Notes: generated by a model not told the origin, from the letters alone. DNA of 64,000 bases from an uncultured Ignavibacteriota bacterium (GCA_903900335.1 CAIUMP010000044.1:1-64000), one strand, 5' to 3'. Numbered from the stretch's first letter, positions 1-14,900 are shown. Made by a program: numbers and translations.

Positions 1-2220
<2,220 letters not shown>

Positions 2221-2253
2221 AAATAAACCTATGATACAGTTAGCAGGCTGCCT

Positions 2254-2467
2254 CGATTCACATCGAGACTTGCTACTTAAGATGCATCACTACAGTGTTT
2301 GATGATCGCTGTGTAGCGGCGAACTTGCGTCCGACACTAACCAACGAACACGACGTACGCTCTTCAGCGCACATCATTGAGACGAACGATTCGCATCGTC
2401 CATCTTTACCAACTGCGAGCAGGCTGTTGAGGCCTGCTCTTTTCTATGGTCCGAACGATTCACATCG
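2254..2467 (-). repeat. Three copies of a 12-bp motif in the 23S leader
   Basis: CGATTCACATCG (plus strand) occurs at 2254-2265 and 2456-2467, and CGATTCGCATCG at 2387-2398. The second and third copies extend to a 16-bp match (15 of 16) at 2383-2398 and 2452-2467, and these two flank the hairpin at 2417-2439. The position just upstream of 23S suggests an rRNA leader signal, for example processing or antitermination, but no function is shown. Confidence 0.6.
2417..2443. other. Strong hairpin in 23S leader, T-run on plus strand
   Basis: GAGCAGGC (2417-2424) pairs perfectly with GCCTGCTC (2432-2439) around a 7-nt loop and is followed by four T on the plus strand. Read on plus it resembles a short intrinsic terminator that would block antisense entry from the rRNA gene. 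Read on minus it would be a stem in the pre-23S leader, preceded by A residues. No plus-strand gene needs it. Confidence 0.5.
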
Positions 2468-2991
2468 CTCGGCCTTAGCTCGATACTTGTGTGTAAAGCT
2501 CGCAACCATTGCTGGTCACGGCCCTACCCATTTCGCATTTTGATCTTTCTTGTGCACTCGTTGAACGTCGTTGGGCTGCGCGAACCGAAGCTCGCTCTCC
2601 GAGAAACTCGGAGGCTCTACTAAGCCATTCATTGAATGTCACCGCTCAGTTGTCATAGAACTTTTTGCCGTTTCCGCCTCGCCTTTCGGCTGGGCAGCAC
2701 GACTAGTAGAATACATCGGAATTGAACCGAATCGCCTCACTTCGCAACCGAAGTTTTCGAGGAGCGCACCAGCGCTTATTCCGTTTTCAAAACCAGTACT
2801 TTCGTCTTGGGAGGCACATAACCGCACTCCGTTTCTCGAAGTTCCGAATTTGATTTTTAATCTCGGATTATTTTAGTGGAGAGGCGTTAGAGCCTGTCCT
2901 GAAGCAGTGAAACCGCTTCCTATGGTCTGAAGAGCGACGACGCACCGTCGATTCAACCGTTAGCGGGAAGCAGCAAACTGACTTCCCTTAA

Positions 2992-3026
2992 CTCAGCACT
3001 GAGCACTTAGCACTCAGGACTTACGA
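2992..3026. repeat. Degenerate heptamer array (CTNAGCA)
   Basis: Five tandem 7-bp units: CTCAGCA, CTGAGCA, CTTAGCA, CTCAGGA and CTTACGA. It resembles the short tandemly repeated heptamers known from cyanobacteria and several other phyla. It is intergenic, between the radical SAM gene and 23S. Confidence 0.75.
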
Positions 3027-3218
3027 GCCTTGCGTGAGAGCCCCGTGAATCACTGATTCCGGGGATAACGACTTGCCGTTTTTTCAAAAAAGCAACCAAC
3101 CAATTACTGATTGCGGGGCCGTAAACCACGGGGAAGGGCGGGGCGTTCCGGGAAAGTGAAACTATTATTGTTAGCGCTACTGTGATGAATATTAGACGAT
3201 ATGGCGCCCCCCCAAACC

Positions 3219-4259
3219 TTAGACCTCTAAAACCTCTTCAGGACGATATTCATGAAGTAGCCATTCTTGCGTTAATACGTCAGCCATTTTTTCAGTATGG
3301 TACTTCTCAATTATCGCTCGAACTTTCTCGTCGCTATAGATGCGAACGCAAGCTTGACACCTATGTGCGTACCAATTCTCCCACAGTATTGAATCATCGT
3401 GACCTGATGCCCATGCAAGGATTTTCTCTGGGCCTTCTACCTTAATCCAATGTTTCAGGAAGTCATCGCTCGCTCTTCTATCTGCCTCGTCTAATGTCAC
3501 TTCTTCAACGTGCCCCAGATGCAACTCAGGAATCATTCTCATGCCGAGGCCACAGCAAGCACCGATGATTCCATTCGCTTGAATAGTAGTTGTCGAAAGA
3601 ATACTATCACAACCCGAACAAGAACTCACGTTCTTATGATTTATGGCAATTCCGAGTGGATAGTCAAAGAGAATACTCGGTTCGAGAGGCATCCACGGAC
3701 TTTCATGTATATTAATTTTGGCTTCGGGAAAATCAGACTGAATCTTAATCCATTCGGGTGATGAGATTACTGTTTCTTTCGTGACCACTCGGTCGAGTAC
3801 AGTCTCCACCATAACTGAAACAGGGAAACAACTTTCTAAAGCAGCTCTAGTCGCGATGTAAATATTCTTTAGCGGCACAAATCTAGCGTGTTGGTCACCC
3901 GTGCTAAAGTTTATTTCATCCAGACCATTCTTCTTGAGTAAAGCAATCACCTGTCGTGCAGCCCCAAGCGAATTAGCCCAATATGCATTAGTAACCACGC
4001 GTGTCATGAGGCCGTGCTCTTTCGCAAAACCGATGGCCTCAGTAAGCGTCTGTTTAGCGAGAAGCGGTTCACCGCCCGTGAACACTACAAGCTTGTAATC
4101 AGATTTTGACGCTTCACGCAGTGAAGAGAAAATTAGATCCTTCGATAACCATGTGTTTTCGCGGGGGCTACTGTACGTTCCACAGTGATCACACTCGGCC
4201 GTACATTGAAACGTAGGCATAATCGAAAGCGTCCTGAGCCTGGGGATCGGGTCGAACAT
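3219..4259 (-). CDS. Radical SAM protein with SPASM/twitch-like C-terminal cysteines (RiPP-maturase-like)
   Basis: 346 residues. The N-terminal radical SAM domain carries C19-x3-C23-x2-C26 to bind the [4Fe-4S] cluster used for S-adenosylmethionine cleavage, and the GGEPL motif at 62-66. The C-terminal part has a SPASM/twitch-like cysteine set: C214-x2-C217, C235-C236 and C301-x2-C304, expected to hold an auxiliary cluster. Such enzymes usually modify peptides. The gene lies 161 nt downstream of an unknown Cys-free 231-residue protein on the same strand, with a nested hairpin between them. Substrate and reaction are unknown: epimerisation or carbon crosslinking would fit a Cys-free partner better than thioether formation. 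The ATG start is preceded by an AT-rich leader without a Shine-Dalgarno sequence. A C7 tract begins 6 bp past the stop. Confidence 0.85.
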   Translation of the reverse strand: MFDPIPRLRTLSIMPTFQCTAECDHCGTYSSPRENTWLSKDLIFSSLREASKSDYKLVVFTGGEPLLAKQTLTEAIGFAKEHGLMTRVVTNAYWANSLGAARQVIALLKKNGLDEINFSTGDQHARFVPLKNIYIATRAALESCFPVSVMVETVLDRVVTKETVISSPEWIKIQSDFPEAKINIHESPWMPLEPSILFDYPLGIAINHKNVSSCSGCDSILSTTTIQANGIIGACCGLGMRMIPELHLGHVEEVTLDEADRRASDDFLKHWIKVEGPEKILAWASGHDDSILWENWYAHRCQACVRIYSDEKVRAIIEKYHTEKMADVLTQEWLLHEYRPEEVLEV

Positions 4260-4336
4260 ATAGACTAAGATAAATGTATGATTACGATGTTATTTTACAG
4301 AACACAGGTACAAGTTGGATGCTTAGTTTTGATGGC

Positions 4337-4389
4337 TGCGGCTTGAACCATAGTTCATGTAGCTTTGAACTTGTGAGTTTCAAGCCGCA
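4337..4389 (-). other. Nested inverted repeat between precursor-like gene and radical SAM gene
   Basis: An 11-bp perfect outer stem (TGCGGCTTGAA at 4337-4347 with its complement at 4379-4389) encloses a 6-bp inner stem (AGTTCA 4352-4357, TGAACT 4366-4371). It sits in the 161-nt gap between the 231-residue ORF stop and the radical SAM start. There is no U-run, so it is not a standard terminator. It may be an mRNA processing or partial attenuation element giving the upstream gene higher expression, as is usual between RiPP precursor and maturase genes. That role is inference. Confidence 0.55.
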
Positions 4390-4420
4390 ACCTCTTTTCG
4401 GCCCTGCCCGCACTGTTAGA

Positions 4421-5116
4421 TTAACCGAACGATAGACCGCCGGCGGCACGTGTGGCAGCCCCAATTTCACGAAGCCGTGATGACACAAGGTTCGAGAGCT
4501 TTGCGAGATCCTCGCGGGTTAACTCCGCACTAACGGGTATCCCAAAAACTGCAACGATGACGACGAAGACAGCCGCTACATCAACTGCGTAGATAAGCGT
4601 CTCGATTTCGACTGCTACATCCTGGTTAATTCCAGTTACAAAAGCGAGTTTAATCTCGCGCAATACATCTGGAATCTTGACGCTTGTTCCAGGACCCGTG
4701 CCCTTTACAAGCAAGATATTCCAAGTTTCACGGTCAATGGTACTCTGCATTCCGTTTATCAGCTCTTCATAAAGTTTTTGCTTGGTTAAGCTGGCGAGGT
4801 ACGACTTTATGGCCTCCGTAGATTGCTCACCTTGTCCTAATTTGGCGATGTCGGATTGGACTTTCTCTTGAAAGTGTTTCGTCCAATCCATAAACTTCTT
4901 GTTACTCAAGAGGGCGTAAAGAAACAAATTAGCCCTATTGATTTGGGAGCTGGGTATTGAGACGGTATCATTCAATACGGTGTGCGCCAGCACCTCAGCG
5001 GGATTATTAAAAAAGACTTCCCTATATGAGTTCGACGCATTCATCTGTCGGAAAAACTTCTGGGCCATTTCGACATATCCGTCGTAGTGCAACGCAAGGA
5101 ATTTCGTTCGTTCCAT
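4421..5116 (-). CDS. Unknown 231-residue Cys-free protein, candidate RiPP precursor/substrate
   Basis: I do not recognise the family. Visible features: an N-terminal segment with YREVFFNNPAEVL (31-43), resembling the 'aspartate/asparagine-Pro-x-x-x-Leu' helix of NHLP/Nif11-type leader peptides; a helical, charged middle (60-130); a very hydrophobic Val/Ile/Ala stretch at about 166-196; and a short tail ending in Arg-Ala-Ala-Gly-Gly-Leu-Ser-Phe-Gly. There is no cysteine. It is followed on the same strand by a radical SAM enzyme with maturase-like architecture. At 231 residues it would be long for a precursor, so it may instead be a carrier or membrane-active protein. The ATG start at 5116 follows a 106-nt gap from the upstream secreted-protein gene. 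Confidence 0.7.
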   Translation of the reverse strand: MERTKFLALHYDGYVEMAQKFFRQMNASNSYREVFFNNPAEVLAHTVLNDTVSIPSSQINRANLFLYALLSNKKFMDWTKHFQEKVQSDIAKLGQGEQSTEAIKSYLASLTKQKLYEELINGMQSTIDRETWNILLVKGTGPGTSVKIPDVLREIKLAFVTGINQDVAVEIETLIYAVDVAAVFVVIVAVFGIPVSAELTREDLAKLSNLVSSRLREIGAATRAAGGLSFG

Positions 5117-5222
5117 TAGTTCTTAAATCAATTGAATCATTTCGCCTACTCTTTCCCGGATTTTCGGCTTCCTCCGCCCCTTCAGCAAAGTGCGAAAGGG
5201 TGAAAAATATTGAAAATGCGCG

Positions 5223-6554
5223 CTATGGTAAGGGATGTGTAATCGTGTTCCGGTCATAGTCGACGCTCTCGCCTGTCCAGTCATAACCCTTCGACGACCC
5301 GTCAGAAAATTTCAGTCGAACAGACCAATTGAAGTGCCATTCATCATGCCCCCTCGGACTCTCGACAAGAACAGCTTGTCCTGGACCAATCAAGTTCTCC
5401 TTTTTAATTCCTTCGCTTACCTCCAAATTGAAAGGACCATGATCGCTATTATTATCCCAGTGCCCGTCTGTGCCTCCCCACTTAGCAATGGTATTCCCTC
5501 CTGCTTTGATGTACACATCAACTCGGGTGTCCGCGTCCTTGTCATTATCCGTCACGTGAAACGAAACGTTGGCACTCGTGAGTACGGGACGAAGGACTGT
5601 AACGTCAGTGAGCCGATGCACACTGCCGCTGGAATTTGACGCAGTCAATCGATAGGTAGTCGTGGCAGTAGGCGTTACCCTGGCGCTGCCGATACCATCG
5701 ACCTGCCCTATACCATTGTCGATCGATAGCTCCGTTGCGTTGCTTACACTCCAATTTAGACTCGCGGTTTCACCTTCCTGTATCTCCTCAGGTGAAGCAC
5801 CAAAATTCGCGATCTGTGGCTTTTGAGGGGGCTCCATGAAGCAGCAGATATCTCCTCTTGACGTGTTGATGACAACAACAAGGGCTTCGCTCGCCTTTCT
5901 ATAAAGTGTGGCAATATTGCCACTTGCGCCACGCAGAAGCTTCGAATTCTTCGGGAACGCCACATGGGATTGCTTGTCCGCGGTTTCACCACCGACAATC
6001 GTGGAACCACGAACGACCGGATCCTTTCCGTTATCACCGGCCATAGGATTCCAGGTAACATGCAGGTTTGCGACTGTGCTGCTGATTTCTTCTATCCATC
6101 CGAACAAACCTACACGCGTGGGGGCGGTCAGTTCTATACAGTGTGTCCAAGATTTAAGAATATCGGGCGATGCGAATTTCGTCAGCGCGGCATACTTCTG
6201 AGCCTTGTTCATAGTTTCGTGCTTGGCGGACTGGTGCGTGCTTCTCCAGGTATCCTTTTGCTGCCTTGAGAATTTCCCGCCTATCTGTAGTGGCACGCCG
6301 TATACTTCGGTTCCTATTGCAATTCCTGCGTCTATTGCCTCCTGATGGGTTGAGAAATTGGCGTCGTAGATGAATTCATCGAACGAAGTAGCCAAATCCA
6401 CACTACTCGAAATTGATGTAGTATTAAAGGGTCCATGCAGTAGAACCTCTTTGCAAGGGTCTTGCGCTCTAACGCGCAGCGGAGCGATAAGCGTACAAAC
6501 CATGAGCAAGAAGGTTGAAGCTGCGGTGTTACCAAGCGAATTGAACTTTCCCAT
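5223..6554 (-). CDS. Secreted protein with bacterial Ig-like domain
   Basis: 443 residues. The N-terminus carries a signal peptide (hydrophobic 11-27, cleavage probably after ARA-Q near 30). Residues about 30-240 form an unrecognised domain with few cysteines. About 245-325 is an Ig-like module with the TATTTYRLTASNSSGS signature seen in many bacterial surface proteins. The C-terminal 110 residues form another beta-rich domain. No T9SS sorting domain and no membrane anchor are visible, so it is predicted to be periplasmic or released. It lies between the LuxR-type gene and the 231-residue gene, in the same direction with gaps of about 107 nt. A possible TAAGTTTG -7 element lies 72 nt upstream. 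Confidence 0.75.
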   Translation of the reverse strand: MGKFNSLGNTAASTFLLMVCTLIAPLRVRAQDPCKEVLLHGPFNTTSISSSVDLATSFDEFIYDANFSTHQEAIDAGIAIGTEVYGVPLQIGGKFSRQQKDTWRSTHQSAKHETMNKAQKYAALTKFASPDILKSWTHCIELTAPTRVGLFGWIEEISSTVANLHVTWNPMAGDNGKDPVVRGSTIVGGETADKQSHVAFPKNSKLLRGASGNIATLYRKASEALVVVINTSRGDICCFMEPPQKPQIANFGASPEEIQEGETASLNWSVSNATELSIDNGIGQVDGIGSARVTPTATTTYRLTASNSSGSVHRLTDVTVLRPVLTSANVSFHVTDNDKDADTRVDVYIKAGGNTIAKWGGTDGHWDNNSDHGPFNLEVSEGIKKENLIGPGQAVLVESPRGHDEWHFNWSVRLKFSDGSSKGYDWTGESVDYDRNTITHPLP

Positions 6555-6592
6555 TACGTTGTGCCGTCTTTTCCCTCAAATACGTTCCTCTT

Positions 6593-6672
6593 CCCCCCCC
6601 ACGCACCCTGCGCGAGAGAACGCTACAAACTTACAACCTCTGCCGAAAAAACCACCCCCCCATTACCCCCCC
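6593..6672 (-). repeat. Three homopolymeric G tracts (7-8 bp) at the regulator 3' end/intergenic region
   Basis: On the plus strand C8 lies at 6593-6600, C7 at 6655-6661 and C7 at 6666-6672. The last is inside the 3' end of the LuxR-type gene and encodes its terminal Met-Gly-Gly, so slippage would extend or alter the C-terminus. The other two lie in the 108-bp gap before the secreted-protein gene. Runs of this length are prone to replication slippage, and the three G runs could also form G-quadruplex structure on the minus strand. Confidence 0.8.
6626..6633 (-). promoter_or_regulatory. Possible -7 element (TAAGTTTG) for the secreted-protein gene
   Basis: The minus strand reads TAAGTTTG, matching the Bacteroidota TAnnTTTG -7 consensus, 72 nt upstream of the ATG at 6554. 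No TTG is found at the usual -33 distance, and the region is dominated by homopolymer tracts, so support is weak. Confidence 0.3.
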
Positions 6673-7004
6673 ATTTGAGGCAGAGCGTCATTTTTTTCTT
6701 CCAACAGCGTGAGAAGTGTTGCGGTGAGCGAGTCACCATCGTGAAGTCCGAGGGCTTTTCGGATGCGGGAGCGTACCTTCTCCACGGCGCGCTCGGTTGA
6801 ACCGAGTATCCGGGCAATCTCGTAGCTTGGCAGCAACTCCGTCGCCAGCGCGGCAACGCGGAGCTGGTTGGGCGTCAGGCTCGGGTAGCGGAGGGCTATC
6901 TTCCTTGCGCGATAGACGAAAATGCCGTTCGTCTCGATCTCAAAACGCTCCCAGCCTTCACATTTTTTCGCGCGCGATCGGCGCGTCTGTGCTTGATTTT
7001 TCAT
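6663..7004 (-). CDS. LuxR/GerE-type helix-turn-helix protein
   Basis: 113 residues. The C-terminal half (about 42-90) is a LuxR-type HTH: LTPNQLRVAALATELLPSYE followed by EIARILGSTERAVEKVRSRI, with the typical 'Leu-Thr-x-x-x-x-x-Val' entry and the Lys-x-x-x-Arg-x-x-Ile recognition helix. The N-terminal 40 residues are basic and contain no receiver or ligand-binding domain, so this is a small stand-alone DNA-binding protein. It is the first gene of the minus-strand accessory locus and may regulate it. A promoter-like TATATTTG lies 146 nt upstream. The gene is bracketed by G/C homopolymer tracts, and its last codons run through one of them. Confidence 0.8.
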   Translation of the reverse strand: MKNQAQTRRSRAKKCEGWERFEIETNGIFVYRARKIALRYPSLTPNQLRVAALATELLPSYEIARILGSTERAVEKVRSRIRKALGLHDGDSLTATLLTLLEEKNDALPQMGG

Positions 7005-7149
7005 TGGGATTCAAGCGTTCGTCTCTGATCGTTTTTACATGCTCAATATCCCTGCACCACAACCTTCGTACAGGTACTGCAAACTCTTGCCCATATTTTT
7101 ATCGGCAATCTGGCAAATTCCCCCGTTCGACAATTGGGAGAGGCTGGGA

Positions 7150-7157
7150 CAAATATA
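7150..7157 (-). promoter_or_regulatory. Likely -7 promoter element for the LuxR-type gene
   Basis: The minus strand reads TATATTTG inside AATGTAGTATATTTGTCC, which matches the much better supported promoter near 20740 at 16 of 18 positions. The -33 position lacks a clear TTG. An 8-bp homopolymer (plus-strand G8, 7184-7191) ends 26 nt upstream of this element, next to where the -33 box should be. Confidence 0.45.
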
Positions 7158-7183
7158 CTACATTTTTCCTTCCGGCCATCGGT

Positions 7184-7191
7184 GGGGGGGG
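7184..7191. repeat. G8 homopolymer upstream of the LuxR-type gene promoter
   Basis: Eight consecutive G on the plus strand, followed by CCCC. It lies between the SDR stop and the predicted LuxR-type promoter. Length changes here could alter promoter strength, as in known phase-variable promoters; this is inference only. Confidence 0.75.
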
Positions 7192-7242
7192 CCCCGGGCG
7201 GTACTCGAGGCGAGCCGGCAAACAATGCCCGGTGAGGGCAGC

Positions 7243-8025
7243 TCAGGCTCTGTGCACAGTGGCCGCAGCAGCCTGTGATGTTGCAAACACAATAATCTCC
7301 GCGATCTGCACATGCGCCGGACGGGTGGCGCACCAGACGATAGTCTCAGCGATATCCTCCGCCTGGAGGGCTTCCAGGCCCTTGTAGACCGTCTTCGCCC
7401 GGTCGGTGTCACCATGGAAGCGTACTTCGGAGAACTCCGTCTCCACCAAACCCGGATCAACCGTCGTCACCCGCAGTGGGGTATCAACCAGATCTAGCCG
7501 AAGTCCCTTCGTGATTGCATCTACAGCGAACTTGGATCCGCAATAGACATTGCCACGTGGGTACACCTCATGACCAGCAATGGATCCAATGTTGATGATA
7601 TGTCCACGTCCCCGCTCGATCATTCCCGGCACGATCTTGCGCGTCATGTAGAGCAAGCCCTTGACATTGGTGTCAAGCATCTCCTCCCAATCCTCGATCA
7701 AGCCATCCTGTAGCTTATCAAGTCCGCGCGAGAGTCCCGCGTTGTTGACGAGTATGTCGACCTGCTTCCACTCTTCCGGGAGGGAGTCAATCGCAGAATC
7801 GACAGCCTTGCGATCACGAACATCAAGTTCGAATACATGCACCTTCAACCCCGGATGTAGAAGCGCAATATTCGCTTGAAGTTCATTCAACCGCTCCAAA
7901 CGCCGAGCGCAGAGCAGCAGCCGCGCCCCCTCCTCGGCAAATGTAAGCGCGGTCGCGCGACCGATACCGCTGGAAGCGCCGGTGATGAGAACGATTTTAT
8001 TGTGGAGAGCCGTGTTCTTACCCAT
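7243..8025 (-). CDS. Short-chain dehydrogenase/reductase (YdfG-like)
   Basis: 260 residues from the ATG at 8025. A classical SDR Rossmann fold: TGASSGIG nucleotide-binding motif near residues 15-22, Arg pair in CARRLERL suggesting NADP preference, NNAG near 95, and the catalytic Ser...Tyr-x-x-x-Lys in the GSIAGHEVYP...YCGSK segment. The family (YdfG/3-hydroxy acid dehydrogenase type) oxidises serine-like or 3-hydroxy acids, or reduces malonic semialdehyde; the substrate here is unknown. I prefer the start at 8025 over the upstream frame because the extra 35 residues would run through a terminator hairpin and resemble no SDR N-terminus. It lies downstream of homogentisate dioxygenase on the same strand. 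Confidence 0.88.
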   Translation of the reverse strand: MGKNTALHNKIVLITGASSGIGRATALTFAEEGARLLLCARRLERLNELQANIALLHPGLKVHVFELDVRDRKAVDSAIDSLPEEWKQVDILVNNAGLSRGLDKLQDGLIEDWEEMLDTNVKGLLYMTRKIVPGMIERGRGHIINIGSIAGHEVYPRGNVYCGSKFAVDAITKGLRLDLVDTPLRVTTVDPGLVETEFSEVRFHGDTDRAKTVYKGLEALQAEDIAETIVWCATRPAHVQIAEIIVFATSQAAAATVHRA

Positions 8026-8030
8026 GATCT

Positions 8031-8065
8031 GAAAAAAGATCGGAGCGAATCGCCGATTCGCTCCG
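8031..8065 (-). terminator. Intrinsic terminator downstream of homogentisate dioxygenase
   Basis: On the minus strand CGGAGCGAAT and ATTCGCTCCG form a perfect 10-bp stem with a 5-nt loop (8041-8065), followed by ATCTTTTTT. It lies between the dioxygenase stop (8091) and the SDR start (8025), with the U-run ending only 6 nt before the SDR ATG. Confidence 0.8.
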
Positions 8066-8090
8066 CGCCATGAAGATGTAAAATTGCCTT

Positions 8091-9215
8091 TTATTTCTTC
8101 TCCTGCCAGCTTGCCCAATACTCCTTCCACTCAGCTGATTCCCCTGCTGGGGCGATCTTGAGCGGATTCTTAGCGTCAAGCATCATAGCATACTCGTTTG
8201 TACGCGTGATGGTTGGGTTCGCCTTCAGCGCCTTTGGGTGCGGGCCGTGGTGGATTCCCTGCGGATGCAGCGTCATCATCGCGGCCTCGATGTTATCGCG
8301 CGAGAAGAAGTCACCATCATGATAGAATAGCACCTCATCGTAGTCGGTGTTGCGATGGTAGAACGGAATGCGAAGCGTGTCGGGATCTTCTTCCAACGGA
8401 CGCGGCAAGAATGAACATATCACAAAATTGTGAGCGAGAAATGTCGTGTGTGCGCTTGGAGGTAGATGCACGCGGTGTGACATGACTGGACGAATGTCCC
8501 GCATGTTGATCTTGAACGCGGTCAGATCGCCCTTCCAGCCCACGATGTCAATTGGATTGAACGGATAGAACATCGACGTGTACTCGCCCAGCCGCCGAAT
8601 GCGAAGCTCGAACTCCTTGCCATTCGAATCCGACTTCTCGTAGGGTATGAACTCCGGGATCGTCACGGCAGACATGTCAAAGATCGCGTGCATACCGATC
8701 ATTCCCTTCTGTTCCGGCGTTGCCGGGAGAACCTCCGAATGTGACTCGACACAGACGATAAAATTATCCTTGACAGAAGGCACGAAGCGATACGTTGTTG
8801 CGCGCGGCATCACAACGTAATCGCCGCGCTCGTAATCCAGCACGCCGAAGTCGGTTTCGATCTTCCCTTCACCACGATGGATGAAGAACAATTCGTCACC
8901 ATCCGCATTGCGTGTGTAAAATGGTGCGGCCTCCGCTCGGCGGCTGATGGAGAGGATGAGATCGTCGTTATAGAGTACAGGCGCTGAGGTACCTCTCGGA
9001 TCGGTCATATCTGAAGGCTCAACCTTATTCAAATAGAACGCATGGGGACGGAGGTTACCTTCAATGCGCGTCCACCCTGTCGGAGGATGCGTGTGGTAGA
9101 GATGGGAAACGCGACCAAAGAATCCCTCGCGCCCGTGCTCTTCTTCGAATGTTCCTTCGGGAAGCCCGACATGGGCCTGACGTGTTGCTTTGCCTTTAAC
9201 AATTGGCCAATTCAT
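8091..9215 (-). CDS. hmgA: Homogentisate 1,2-dioxygenase
   Basis: 374 residues from the ATG at 9215. A cytosolic Fe(II) dioxygenase that opens the aromatic ring of homogentisate to maleylacetoacetate in tyrosine/phenylalanine breakdown. The cupin fold shows the family signatures YTRNADGDELFFIHRGEG, the metal-binding FYHRNTDYDEVLFYHDGD (His and Glu ligands near 287 and 294) and HPQGIHHGPHP (His ligand near 322-323). The length is slightly short for the family (about 380-440), as in many bacterial forms. The 16 residues before MNWPIVKG are not homologous to family N-termini, so I chose the internal ATG. No maleylacetoacetate isomerase or fumarylacetoacetase gene is adjacent. Confidence 0.92.
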   Translation of the reverse strand: MNWPIVKGKATRQAHVGLPEGTFEEEHGREGFFGRVSHLYHTHPPTGWTRIEGNLRPHAFYLNKVEPSDMTDPRGTSAPVLYNDDLILSISRRAEAAPFYTRNADGDELFFIHRGEGKIETDFGVLDYERGDYVVMPRATTYRFVPSVKDNFIVCVESHSEVLPATPEQKGMIGMHAIFDMSAVTIPEFIPYEKSDSNGKEFELRIRRLGEYTSMFYPFNPIDIVGWKGDLTAFKINMRDIRPVMSHRVHLPPSAHTTFLAHNFVICSFLPRPLEEDPDTLRIPFYHRNTDYDEVLFYHDGDFFSRDNIEAAMMTLHPQGIHHGPHPKALKANPTITRTNEYAMMLDAKNPLKIAPAGESAEWKEYWASWQEKK

Positions 9216-9353
9216 TCTTCTATACTCCAAGTTCTCATGATGATTGTCCGATCCATCAACCATTTGTCACGCTTCCGCGAATCGGCACAGTTAGTACCAA
9301 AACGCCATTGCGTCAGGAATTGTTAGCTTCCGACGAACGAATTTCTACCACAA

Positions 9354-9854
9354 ATGACCCCTCCCTTAGCTGAAGATCACTCTCTTTGCAAAGTGTTAGA
9401 TTCCCTCATCGCAACGGATGAGCCCCTCATCACCGCGCTCTCCAACGCCGCGGCACTTCTCTACACCACTCTCGAAAACATCAACTGGTGCGGATTTTAT
9501 ATCTTCGATGGTGAGAAACTCGTCCTCGGGCCATTCGGCGGCAAACCGGCGTGCACCGTGATACCGATGGGCAAGGGTGTCTGTGGTACTGCAGCGCAGA
9601 AACGGGAGATCATCAGCGTTGCAGATGTGGATGAATTTCCGGGTCACATTGCTTGCGATGCTGCGTCTCAATCTGAAATAGTGCTCCCGATCATCCTGAG
9701 TGATGGCAAGCTCTTCGGTGTTCTCGATGTGGATGCACCTGTGAAGAACCGATTCACGGACGAGGACGAAGGCGAACTTGCCGAAGTGGTTTCAGTTCTT
9801 GTCGGTAAGCTCGATGCAATTATTACAAGATCCGGCAACAGCTGGATTTCGTAA
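9354..9854 (+). CDS. msrC: Free methionine-(R)-sulfoxide reductase (GAF domain, fRMsr)
   Basis: 166 residues, a single GAF domain. Family signatures are clear: NWCGFYIFDGEKLVLGPFGG, KPACTVIPMGKGVCG and EFPGHIACDAASQSEIVLPI. The three redox cysteines fall at 67, 77 and 101, with the same 10 and 24 residue spacing as in the characterised enzyme. It reduces free methionine-R-sulfoxide with thioredoxin, protecting against oxidative damage. It is divergent from homogentisate dioxygenase (138-bp gap) and convergent with the OmpA-like gene (10-bp gap). Its TAA stop is part of a TTCGTAA heptamer repeat. Confidence 0.9.
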   Translation: MTPPLAEDHSLCKVLDSLIATDEPLITALSNAAALLYTTLENINWCGFYIFDGEKLVLGPFGGKPACTVIPMGKGVCGTAAQKREIISVADVDEFPGHIACDAASQSEIVLPIILSDGKLFGVLDVDAPVKNRFTDEDEGELAEVVSVLVGKLDAIITRSGNSWIS

Positions 9855-9868
9855 TTCGTAACTCCTAT
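9848..9868. repeat. Heptamer repeat TTCGTAA overlapping the msrC stop codon
   Basis: TTCGTAA at 9848-9854 and 9855-9861, then a degenerate CTCCTAT. The first unit supplies the stop codon of the plus-strand gene. It resembles the TTCATAA array at 51639-51666. Confidence 0.6.
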
Positions 9869-11958
9869 TTTCCTTTGACGACCGCATCAAGTGGCGTCTC
9901 GACCTCGACTCTCACCGTCCTGCAATAATATCGTCCCTCGGGAAGATGATTGTCATAGAGCAGGTTCGACGGCCCGATCCCTTTCGTGCTCGTGATCTTC
10001 GAATTGGATTTCTCTGCAAGGATCACATCGCGCACATTGAATGCGCGATCCTCCGATAGCTTCTCATTGTGCTTGAGTTCGCCTAAGTTATCGGTCGAGC
10101 CGGTGATCGTCGCAGAGGAAACATCGTAAAATGACTTCGACACGAACTGCGAAATCATTCGCTTGTTCTGAGGGCCAATCGCGGATTGATCGAAATCAAA
10201 AACAATCAACGACAGGCGACTTAGTTCAAACGGGTTGATGGTTTTCGTTGCGGGAAGTGCAATCGCTAACTTCGAGTGCGCTCCGTTCGTCGCTGTGGCT
10301 TCAAGTTCAAAAGTGAGAGAGTCGTTCGTGCCCAATGATTTGGCGAGTGATTCGATCTGCCCATCAGTCGGCATCCACTCTATGCTGCTCGGCGGTGCGC
10401 CGTTGCCAGAGGATTCGTAGATGCTCGCCAAGTTCTTTGCAACCCGCACGCGAATTCTCCAATCACGAACTCCAGCTCGGCTGGTTGCCGCAAGTTGCAA
10501 CGGCAATGACTTTGGCGTGGACGACTCTTCCTTGAACCGCTCATGTACTATCGGCTTGAGGATCTGTCCATCATTGGAAGATAGCTCAACTCTTCTATTC
10601 TCTTCGAGACCCTCTGCGTACTCCGTGCTTGATGGATTGTGGGGTGCTTCGCTCGTTGTGACGAACAGACGTTGTGGCTCAATTTTCCAGACCTTCACCA
10701 AATAATCTCGAACAGCCTCTGCTCGCGCCACACCCAGTTGCTCGCCGTATTCTCGGGTACTGACTTCTCGTCCGTCTGTTGTGCCATTGATCGTCAGATG
10801 TGAAGCAGCAGCAGACCTCATGCGGCTTCCAATGACGTTAAGCAAATTATAGTAGGACTCGAGTGACCGATGCGGAAGCTCACTCTCTCGGAATCGATCG
10901 GCCTCTACAGTCGTGATCTGCGCAAAGCGATCCGGAAGTGTCGAACTAGCACTGTCAAAGAAGACATATGGCAGGATGGGGAAGGTCTCCGTCACTGTTG
11001 TTTCGACAATTCGGAATGGCTCACTAGCAAGCGACACTACCGTGAGTTTTGGTGCCATCGCATTCGGATCCTCACGTACCGCCACAGGTGGCGGGGCAGG
11101 CTTCGTTGGAGGAAGCTCTACGTAAGGCGGCGGTCTATTCCAGCGAACTGCAACTCCTCCGCGGAGCGAGCTCACATGCCATTGAAAATCCGATTCGACG
11201 TTCGTCATCGGATAATAATAGGAAATCTCCGGTGAAATCGTGAAAGACGGTCCGAGCGGAAGTTCATCCCCGATCACTCCGCTTACACCAACGCTCGTAT
11301 GAACATTAGGGATGGTACCTGAGCCATCTTCGCGGGTCGTAGTGTGTGTCTCTGGATAGAATACACCTTTGGGTGAGAGTATCTCAGCGGTCTGCGTATA
11401 GTTCGCTGAACTTCCTAATGGTATTCCTGCTTCAAGGTTTGAACCAAGGTAGAGGGCGAGACCCTTGATCGGCCTCACACGAAGCCCCGCTGACAGGTTA
11501 ACAAAACCTAAGCTCGCATGGTACGTGCTCTGCTGGATGAGCGGAACGTACTTGTTTGAATTCGGATCGAGAACGGTAAGATTGTTCGAGACCGCGGCGC
11601 CGAACTCCCCTCCACGATTTACAAGGCCAGCGCCAAACGTCAGGTCCAATCGTCGATAGAAATTGAACGGCACTTCGCCAAAAAACTCAATGGCATAGCC
11701 ACCGCCCTTGCCATCGGAGTACGTGCCACATGTCGGGCAGATCGCGGTGGTATGGTGATAGTTTTCGAGATAACCGGCGCGAAACCCAGCATGAAAAGGT
11801 GAGAGCGTTGCGTCCTGGGTGCTTTGAGCGCATGCTAAAGAAGCTCCGAACAATTCAGTGACAACCAGTATAAAACAGAGACGAAAGGCACGCCATCCGC
11901 GACCCTTCGCTGTTGTCCAATATCGGACTTCGCCCCTCGAACCGTGACTAACGCTCAC
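9865..11958 (-). CDS. Outer-membrane protein with two OmpA-like domains
   Basis: 697 residues. A GTG start inside GTGA overlaps the stop of the upstream 1643-residue gene by 4 nt, indicating translational coupling. The signal peptide has its hydrophobic core at about 27-45, ending ACAQ. Residues about 50-280 have the alternating Tyr/Gly-rich pattern of an outer-membrane beta-barrel. A first OmpA-like region (about 330-470) holds VFFDSASSTLP and the SRE...EENRRVEL block; a second (about 590-690) holds FDFDQSAIGPQNK and STDNLGE...LSEDRA. OmpA domains bind peptidoglycan, so it probably anchors or organises the surface proteins encoded upstream. Two such domains in one chain is less common. It is the last gene of a four-gene operon. 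Confidence 0.85.
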   Translation of the reverse strand: MSVSHGSRGEVRYWTTAKGRGWRAFRLCFILVVTELFGASLACAQSTQDATLSPFHAGFRAGYLENYHHTTAICPTCGTYSDGKGGGYAIEFFGEVPFNFYRRLDLTFGAGLVNRGGEFGAAVSNNLTVLDPNSNKYVPLIQQSTYHASLGFVNLSAGLRVRPIKGLALYLGSNLEAGIPLGSSANYTQTAEILSPKGVFYPETHTTTREDGSGTIPNVHTSVGVSGVIGDELPLGPSFTISPEISYYYPMTNVESDFQWHVSSLRGGVAVRWNRPPPYVELPPTKPAPPPVAVREDPNAMAPKLTVVSLASEPFRIVETTVTETFPILPYVFFDSASSTLPDRFAQITTVEADRFRESELPHRSLESYYNLLNVIGSRMRSAAASHLTINGTTDGREVSTREYGEQLGVARAEAVRDYLVKVWKIEPQRLFVTTSEAPHNPSSTEYAEGLEENRRVELSSNDGQILKPIVHERFKEESSTPKSLPLQLAATSRAGVRDWRIRVRVAKNLASIYESSGNGAPPSSIEWMPTDGQIESLAKSLGTNDSLTFELEATATNGAHSKLAIALPATKTINPFELSRLSLIVFDFDQSAIGPQNKRMISQFVSKSFYDVSSATITGSTDNLGELKHNEKLSEDRAFNVRDVILAEKSNSKITSTKGIGPSNLLYDNHLPEGRYYCRTVRVEVETPLDAVVKGK

Positions 11959-14900
11959 TTAATTACCACCAACCTCTCACCTGCCCGGTAATCTCCGGCC
12001 CGAAAATCTATGTAGTAGGCTCCTGCTGCCAAAAGGCGAGCATCGAATTCCAGATGATAACTTCCACCACCCATCTTAGCGCTACCATCCAAGAGAGTGA
12101 GAACGCTCACCCCTGTGCTGTTGAAAATGTTCAGCATCGGACTCGCATCTTCGATAAATGATACATCTATCGCAACACGCCCCGTCGCCGGATTTGGATG
12201 AGGCGTTGAGATCGAGTTCGAGCCTACCCGGAATTCCAGATGGGTGATATTACACCGCGGCCCAACACTCACAACCCCAGTGTCCCCGACCGGGCGTGGC
12301 TTGATAAACATGATGGAGTCGCTGGTAAACGTCCCTGGCGCCAGTGTCATGATCGAAACGACGCTATCCGGCGCGGTGATCAGGAACTTGGCCCGAGCAA
12401 CCTCTCCGGTGTCAACGTTATTGCAACTCAGAAGTGAGATCGCGAGAGACCCAAGATTGTCCGTCACTATTGCGTTCGAATATTTTGATTTCGCGCTCAG
12501 ATATTCAAGCTGCCGTGGGTTGTAGTTAAGTGTGAATCGAACATCCAAAGGTGTGAGCGGTATCGCACGGTCGAGCCTGATCGGCACTTCTACGGTATCT
12601 GCGATCCGCCCTCCAATCGAATCGAGGGATGAGTAGTCCGGAGTTACCTGCATTTTAAATGGAAACGGCGGTGCGTAGCCGTAGCTTGTGAGACGGCCGC
12701 TATCAATGGCCAGACATGGCTTATTCGAGTAGGCGACAATCGTAGTATCGAAGAGCTGCTCATCACGAGGACAGAAGCGCACCGTCAGCAGAACGGAATC
12801 ACCCGGCAGGATCATCGCAGGCAGCGGTACGTTCGCGCCCGTTACCGTGTGCCACTTCGGCAGTCCCGAGAGTGAATCAAATCGTACCGGCAGCACCCCT
12901 GTGTTATGAATTGTAACGATCTCGTCCTTGCAGCTTTTGACGTTCACGGTGTCATAGGCCGTGAGCTTTGTCATCGCGATCTTCGGTTCGTCGATCTCGA
13001 TGACACCATGGTCGTTGCCAGCGATTATCTTAAAGAAGACAAGCGAATCGCTATCGAAGTTGATATTGTCCAGAGTGATCGGGAATCTGTTCGGGCCACC
13101 AGTCACACGGAATCGTAGCGTATCTATGACTCCCACTTTCACATTGATACCGTTCTTCATTGAGACATTAGCCCCATCGCTGGTATCCTGCATGGATACG
13201 GAATTCGTATAGGCGGACGTACCTCCGATCGGCACAAGCGAGGTGGTATCATAGCCCAGATGATAGAATACATCCATGTACTTCTGCGGAACATCGCGGC
13301 TCGAAAAGATCGGTAACACAAGCGTATCGCAGGTCGTCAACCGAATCGTGTCTCGTCCGATCTTCGAGGTATCGAAGGCCATCTGGAGTCCGAATGCTGG
13401 CGCAAAGCCGGAGCCCATAACGAGCACGCTGGTATCGTAACTATCGCACGGGAAAATGGTGTGGATGAGCATACGCGCCGTGTAGATCTTGGGTGCTCGA
13501 GGGAAGAAATTGACTTTGATCGAGAACTTCTTGTTGCGTTGAATCACCCATGGCAACGGCGCTCCAGTGGAGGCGGAGGCCGTGAAGACTTTCTGATCCG
13601 GTTGGAAAGTGACATCTGTGATGACGATGGAGTCGCCATCGGGGTTGATCGTTACGTCGGGCACAGTGAGCGTTACCGCTCTTGGCTGGGCGGAAGTATC
13701 CACTCTCGTTGCGGGAAATTGCACCTGCGACACGTCTGGCTGGAAATTCATCTCGCGACGGCCACTCAAGTATGTTACAAACGTCGATGTCCAACCCGGC
13801 GAATGTGCCTTGATATGGATCGTGTCATTCTTGACCAGGTTGGCCTTGATCGCCGGAATATTCGGACAGAATGAAATTACCAGTGTGTCAGCAGTCTTTG
13901 GCGCAATGGTAAATGGCAGCGTTTGGTCTCCAGTAGATTGACGCTTCCAGTGAAAGGTGGAAGGCGCAAGCTTTGTCACCCCAGTACCGTCGATCCAGAT
14001 CGAGTCAATTGTGATGGGGACAAGATTGCTAAAATTTGGTAGCGGGATGTTCCTCGACACACAATCACAGGGACGCACCAAACCATAGTTCATAAAGCTC
14101 AGCGGCACTTGCAGCTTCACCGACTGTCCCTGTCCGGTCAGTGCACCAGCGTAGGTATTGACGCATGGTGAATCCACCTGTACCGTGATGTTTGCATTGT
14201 AGGACGAGTCCCCTGTCGGTTGGAACTCCACAATGAGCCACATGGAGTCACGCGGCTGAAGCACCGCAGGCACAGGCGGGTTCACGCTGATCAGCTTATA
14301 GCCGTAAGGAATGGTGATACCGGCGATCTTCTCCGACACCGCACTGGCATTCTCAATGAGAATGCTATCCCGTTTTTGCCAGCCAACTTCGACCAGTCCG
14401 AATGTGGTCAAAGGCGTAACATACACCCTGGGAGCTACACTCGTCCCTCGTAGAAGCAGATGGTACACTTGACCATCCGAGAGGGTCACATCAATGTAGG
14501 CTTCGTCCGCGCGGTCTGTGGAAACATCGTTCGGCGTGTAGGTTATGTTGAAGGTGTAACTTTGATTGTTTGCGAACGGGCCGGGCGGGATCGGATTGGA
14601 GAGTGTGAATTTCCCGGTAGGATCCGAAAGTGTGCTGCCCACAATGGTGACACCCGCTCCAGAAATATTCTGCATCGTGATTATCCCAGAACCAGCTCGG
14701 CATCCAACGATATTTGGCAGGTCCAGATACGGCGGAGTGAAGGAAAATGCCTGAAAGACGCCAGTACCCTCGATCGGAATACACTTTGTCTCATAACAGC
14801 CTTCATCGAAAATGCAAAGCGTATCATAGTAGGTCTGCGGCTGGCGTGGCCGAAACTGCACATTGATCGGAAGCATCTGCTTCGGATTGATCTTCAATAC

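Follow-up and report, generated by a model that had tools for sequence, protein, structure and literature searches.

We examined the first 64,000 nucleotides of contig C44 from an uncultured Ignavibacteriota bacterium (the window; the genome comprises 4.0 Mb in 62 contigs), in which a radical S-adenosylmethionine (SAM) enzyme is encoded next to a 231-residue protein that is predicted to be the precursor of a ribosomally synthesised and post-translationally modified peptide (RiPP). The proteins of this organism appear to be Bacteroidota-like. Coordinates are those of the whole window, counted from its first letter. Inspection of the DNA by itself (the sequence-only reading) had placed four open reading frames (ORFs) here, and all four were recovered on the minus strand at those positions (Table 1). 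The precursor and enzyme genes are both intact, and the former lies directly upstream of the latter on the same strand, as had been claimed, with a gap of 161 nt.

Table 1. Features of the locus, in window coordinates (aa, amino acids; HTH, helix-turn-helix)
Feature	Position	Strand	Remarks
Predicted radical SAM peptide epimerase, EpeE/YydG-like, 346 aa	3219..4259	-	C19/C23/C26, 4Fe-4S/SAM; C217/C235/C301/C304, auxiliary-cluster set; C236, predicted H-atom donor
Predicted precursor, 231 aa, Cys-free	4421..5116	-	Helical NHLP-like leader (~1-140), internal core, C-terminal tail
Predicted core, precursor residues 166-195, DVAVEIETLIYAVDVAAVFVVIVAVFGIPV	4532..4621	-	From alignment with the cores of loci L032 and L022; boundaries approximate
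Precursor C-terminal tail (follower)	4421..4531	-	Predicted helix 201-224; conserved within the window clade
DUF805b cis-regulatory RNA (RF02914)	5143..5177	-	Lies 26 nt ahead of the precursor start; probably forms the 5' leader of an mRNA for precursor and enzyme
Secreted Ig-like protein, 443 aa	5223..6554	-	Membership in the pair not supported
LuxR/GerE-like HTH protein, 113 aa, probable regulator	6663..7004	-	Homologues adjoin other DUF805b copies of the genus

The features ascribed to the precursor were confirmed: it contains no Cys, the leader-like motif YREVFFNNPAEVL lies at residues 31-43, and the Val/Ile-rich hydrophobic stretch is present as an internal core that is followed by a conserved tail to residue 231. 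The proposed NHLP-like character of the motif is supported by a conserved consensus, FxxNPxGVL, among precursor homologues; NHLP-clan models matched a few of these relatives (E to 3e-4) and not the window precursor. The leader is predicted to be helical with moderate confidence, in a structure model that is of low confidence as a whole (pLDDT, the predicted local distance difference test, 53) and whose PDB matches are meaningless, with the caveat that structure predictors assume L-residues. By a simple pattern applied without a signal-peptide predictor, 14 of the 44 family precursors carry a twin-arginine motif near the N-terminus, followed by a hydrophobic run in most, and about seven more have a Sec or lipoprotein-like start; the same scan found neither kind of start in the window precursor. 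In one precursor branch, the C-terminal tail corresponds to Pfam DUF5969 (L031:3243-3968), which is likely to be the meaning of that family.

The proposal that the 231-residue protein is the substrate of a RiPP maturase was supported by the conserved adjacency of the two genes. In a tblastn search of plasmids, both were found adjacent and in the same order on a Streptomyces canus plasmid (identities of 26.5% for the precursor, E 9e-14, and 54% for the enzyme), and plasmid relatives of the enzyme in Thermus, Lactococcus, Eleftheria, Enterococcus, Halocatena, Klebsiella and Collinsella each had, next to the enzyme, a long protein containing a stretch rich in Val/Ala or Asn/Ala. Genome contigs yielded no match to the window precursor as a single query because the precursor diverges too fast, and an enzyme alignment was used instead, which detected ~48 clear enzyme homologues in many phyla. 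At the nearest of these loci (L032, enzyme identity 57%), the gene just upstream has the core DVAVEVETLIYAVAVAAVAVVVTVV, which is close to DVAVEIETLIYAVDVAAVFVVIVAV in the window. Twenty-five enzyme-adjacent ORFs in 46 loci passed a score for Val/Ala/Asn-rich cores, versus 10 of 3160 ORFs elsewhere (Fisher p ~1e-31, which is indicative only, since the score is composition-based and was designed after examples had been seen), and no such ORF adjoined other radical SAM enzymes in 24 control loci. Furthermore, a profile of six window-clade precursors found enzyme-adjacent genes in other clades (L076, 1e-22; L035, 2e-18; Thermus, 5e-9), mainly through the leader. The pair thus adjoins over a wide phylogenetic distance, where homologues that never co-occur would have spoken against it, and from these comparisons the 231-residue protein is almost certainly the substrate of the window enzyme.

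The cysteines of the enzyme were as claimed, with Cys19, Cys23 and Cys26 forming the CX3CX2C motif and the others at positions 214, 217, 235, 236, 301 and 304. In 35 homologues the three motif cysteines and Cys217, Cys235, Cys236, Cys301 and Cys304 are invariant, and these are the eight cysteines common to EpeE; Cys214 is variable. The enzyme matched Pfam Radical_SAM (E 6e-12), with SPASM below threshold (E 0.087), and its best NCBIfam family was the YydG peptide epimerase (E 5e-19), a model matched by 35 of the 35 homologous enzymes. A sequence search of the PDB likewise ranked YydG/EpeE first, and a profile built on eight homologues matched EpeE nearly end to end (E 1e-32), aligning Cys217 with the Cys of CPGY, Cys235/Cys236 with the CC pair (C222/C223) and Cys301/Cys304 with CGVC. 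Since PDB entry 8ai6, titled as a D210A mutant, fixes the numbering, the second Cys of this pair is Cys223, which has been proposed from mutagenesis as the H-atom donor, according to a review (PMC8326336). When the AlphaFold model of the enzyme (pLDDT 92) was searched with Foldseek, EpeE entries occupied ranks 1-9 in the PDB (template modelling (TM) score ~0.7, E 1e-17), and the next fold family, BlsE, came well behind (E 1e-9, TM 0.52). From these sequence and model comparisons, we are confident in predicting that the enzyme is an EpeE-like epimerase from a divergent sister branch of the EpeE/YydG family.

The sequence-only reading had listed epimerisation, crosslinking and excision side by side. 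Epimerisation is now much the best of these options, the enzyme being EpeE-like, and an equal standing for the other two is not supported; thioether formation stays excluded by the Cys-free precursor, which also rules out a sactipeptide or ranthipeptide. Our favoured interpretation, which we hold to be fairly probable, is a two-gene RiPP system in which the enzyme and the 231-residue precursor yield a D-residue-containing, hydrophobic peptide that inserts into membranes and antagonises other cells. SAM-derived radicals would abstract the C-alpha hydrogen from Val, Ile or Ala in the core (~166-195), and the resulting radicals would be quenched from the opposite face through Cys236, giving D-residues. 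Leader and tail would then be removed, leaving a hydrophobic peptide in which several residues, perhaps every second one, are in the D form and which could insert into membranes, probably as a beta-helix of the gramicidin or polytheonamide kind, with the antagonism of other cells as its presumed role. Multiple D-residues and membrane activity are likely; processing and export we infer.

The stereochemical part of this proposal draws on the periodicity of the cores. In 43 cores, Asn-Asn pairs were nearly absent at odd spacings (0-2 observed versus ~18-26 expected) and in excess at even spacings, with a maximum at lag 6 (77 versus 22, z 15.7) and a second peak at lag 12 (z 9.6). The peak at lag 6 persisted in cores that had fewer than five Asn (10 versus 1.1 expected). 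Val/Ile showed an excess at lag 2 both over the cores (z 5.6) and in the window clade (z 5.3), and 65 control hydrophobic segments had neither this excess nor a strict Asn parity. These statistics treat related core sequences, which are not independent, and tandem repeats may account for part of the Asn signal where cores are NAN-rich, though less so for the low-Asn cores with their own lag-6 peak. NX5N is the core motif of polytheonamides (PMC9259500), in which N-methyl-Asn at positions 16, 22 and 28 gives a hydrogen-bonded chain along the beta-helix (PMC11285071), and alternating L and D residues produce a membrane-spanning beta-helix (PMC8183687). By analogy, the even-spaced i+6 pattern of Asn is polytheonamide-like, as would befit an alternating D/L beta-helix, and suggests D-residues in these cores. 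Pythonamide has no NX5N and is epimerised at V10, A12, A14, V16 and V18 (PMC9259500), and therefore a Val/Ala core can serve as the substrate of a radical SAM epimerase.

Further indications come from neighbouring genes. Among 100 neighbouring proteins, there were 12 with bPH_5 (a bacterial PH domain, in membrane proteins), six SdpI, two DUF1648, nine MTS-type methyltransferases and five ABC exporter membrane domains; single loci contained a B12-dependent radical SAM enzyme, 2-oxoglutarate-dependent oxygenases, or a C39-peptidase ABC exporter with HlyD. Because immunity to the SDP toxin is known to be conferred by SdpI, the SdpI and bPH proteins are plausible immunity proteins, and the recurrence of these membrane proteins, methyltransferases and transporters suggests membrane-active peptides with immunity genes. 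As a separate observation, the Mesorhizobium loci L039 and L078 (~2000-12800) combine several precursor-like genes with genes for two EpeE-like enzymes and one B12-dependent radical SAM enzyme, a candidate cluster for a heavily modified peptide.

Several observations weigh against the favoured interpretation. The enzyme scores far under the YydG equivalog cut-off (68.8 versus 300 bits), and Asp210 of the EpeE active site aligns with Thr223, beside a two-residue insertion; it is because of this score and the non-conserved Asp210 that we place the enzyme in a related branch and not in YydG itself. The window core has no internal Asn, and hence the i+6 signature is not assessable there, and taken alone it has a weak Val/Ile alternation (lag-2 z 1.9). 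Next to the window pair we recognised no gene for immunity, a protease or a transporter, and the single SdpI gene of the genome is unlinked, on contig C4. Given a core without Asn and no recognisable immunity gene, full alternation and toxicity at the window locus are what we infer. Finally, the epimerisations may be few, because EpeE makes just two D-residues, at Val36 and Ile44 of its substrate EpeX (PMC8326336).

The low score and the non-conserved Asp210 would also fit an enzyme that installs another modification, such as a C-C or C-O crosslink, backbone excision or oxidation, which auxiliary-cluster radical SAM maturases as a group perform. However, among solved structures only EpeE comes close in fold, all 35 enzymes retain the CC pair that contains the H-donor Cys, and the cores, rich in Val/Ala, mostly offer few Cys, Trp, Tyr or Lys partners. 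We regard this alternative as very unlikely. The precedent of EpeE, the closest characterised enzyme, bears on a different alternative, in which only one or a few D-residues are made and the product is otherwise an alpha-helical, hydrophobic, SDP-like membrane peptide and not a D/L beta-helix. The absence of an Asn ladder from the window core, weak matches of four of the 44 family precursors to the SdpC toxin model (best 8e-6) and the recurrence of SdpI-type proteins are in keeping with such a product, whereas the strict even-spacing parity and i+6 Asn peak of many other cores and the lag-2 Val/Ile excess in the window clade argue for more extensive epimerisation; we consider this alternative rather unlikely.

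On the distribution of the pair, the enzyme tree grouped the window with the Streptomyces plasmid and two Pseudomonadota (support 100/97). Six genomes of the same genus and 93 other relatives lacked the precursor, and the enzyme matched there only other radical SAM proteins, weakly and over short stretches. Together with plasmid and prophage-like carriage, the tree and this patchy presence point to horizontal transfer. Two prophage-like contigs (L139 and L142, 5000-7600) carry a three-gene set of an EpeE-like enzyme, a precursor with a start of the twin-arginine translocation (Tat) type and a PH-type membrane protein; the set adjoins a tail gene read as P2 gpD-like and appears to be a cargo cassette in a phage tail region. 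No match was found to the window enzyme, as a single query, in viral contigs, or to the precursor and the prophage-borne enzyme in phage records. The absence from relatives, the lack of an immunity or export gene nearby and the presence of a different cassette in the same interval of a relative could also mean that a degenerate or orphaned cassette, no longer yielding a peptide, occupies a variable site next to the 23S rRNA gene. This is improbable in our view, since both ORFs are intact with their key residues kept and a DUF805b element lies just upstream of the precursor.

Returning to the epimerase-precursor pair, we are confident from sequence comparison that the family extends over many bacterial phyla and one archaeon, a haloarchaeon (about ten phyla). 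A literature search, for which most subscription papers and preprints were out of reach, found no earlier description of the pairing. The remark that no such system had been described therefore holds roughly for the gene composition and not for the enzyme, whose predicted chemistry is that of the known EpeE family. More tentatively, although it seems quite possible, the family may constitute a new pan-prokaryotic RiPP class, in which EpeE-type epimerases act on long, often Tat-exported precursors whose internal core turns into a beta-helical pore of alternating D and L residues. SdpI or bPH membrane proteins would confer immunity, and plasmids, prophage-like elements and variable chromosomal sites would carry the genes from phylum to phylum.

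The window pair resembles epeXEPAB (yydFGHIJ) of Bacillus subtilis in the radical SAM fold, the cysteine set, the H-donor Cys and, as predicted, in Val/Ile epimerisation targets and a membrane-active product. It differs in the size of the precursor (231 residues with a long leader and a C-terminal tail versus a short peptide), in an Asp210 that is not conserved, in the absence of visible epeP or epeAB partners and possibly in more epimerisations. With the polytheonamide, aeronamide and pythonamide proteusins (PoyA/PoyD type), the family may share an NHLP-like leader, and it has in common a predicted radical SAM epimerase and, in many relatives, the alternating core with Asn at i+6 (NX5N), and some loci have B12-radical SAM or oxygenase genes. 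Unlike in proteusins, the family enzyme is EpeE-like (the comparison took in EpeE, not PoyD), the core is internal with a tail and not at the precursor C-terminus, many precursors have Tat or Sec signals, and SdpI/bPH partners occur; the window core, unlike polytheonamides and many of its own relatives, has no NX5N. The SdpC/SdpI system is similar in its long precursor with an internal hydrophobic core, and SdpI-family proteins occur in several family loci; the window precursor did not match the SdpC toxin model, and no SdpI gene was found near the window pair. The SDP system is not known to include a radical SAM enzyme. Few organisms are known to make D/L beta-helical peptides of the polytheonamide type. 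If our interpretation is true, channel peptides made through one EpeE-type enzyme would be widespread, with candidate immunity proteins and culturable hosts at hand, and Asn parity with the i+6 peak would be a sequence test for predicting stereochemistry from the gene. Tat export of a RiPP precursor would be unusual.

As for local regulation, the 113-residue protein had only a weak GerE match (E 0.0086), and its designation as a LuxR regulator is plausible: the Thermus and Calidithermus loci have LuxR-type HTH genes next to them, and homologues of the 113-residue protein adjoin same-genus DUF805b elements. Same-genus genomes contain 0-3 DUF805b copies each, several of them directly after a homologue of the window HTH gene (L110, L112, L114/L134, L116). 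Between its 23S rRNA gene and the SDR gene, the relative G004 carries a different HTH/DUF805b cassette, which together with these copies suggests a variable site whose gene sets can be exchanged and are marked by HTH plus DUF805b. In the window, the HTH gene is probably the regulator of the precursor/enzyme pair. The Ig-like protein, which had been counted as a member of the system, had no counterpart beside other enzymes and no match in Pfam, NCBIfam or PDB, with just a weak C-terminal match (28%) in an HTH/DUF805b cassette.

The 23S rRNA gene occupies the first 2220 bases of the window on the minus strand and runs off the contig start, and no 16S gene was found anywhere in the window; G004 has the same 23S arrangement, which suggests unlinked rRNA genes with a variable site alongside. 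Across the genus, HTH and DUF805b are often followed by differing genes, for secreted proteins or for biosynthesis, and such interchangeable cassettes may form a single regulon. In one further case (L108:1571-1900), a genome of the same family has a DUF805b copy directly before a 109-residue RiPP precursor whose leader is NHLP-like and whose end is rich in Cys/Thr; a LanM-like gene, recognised by eye, comes next.
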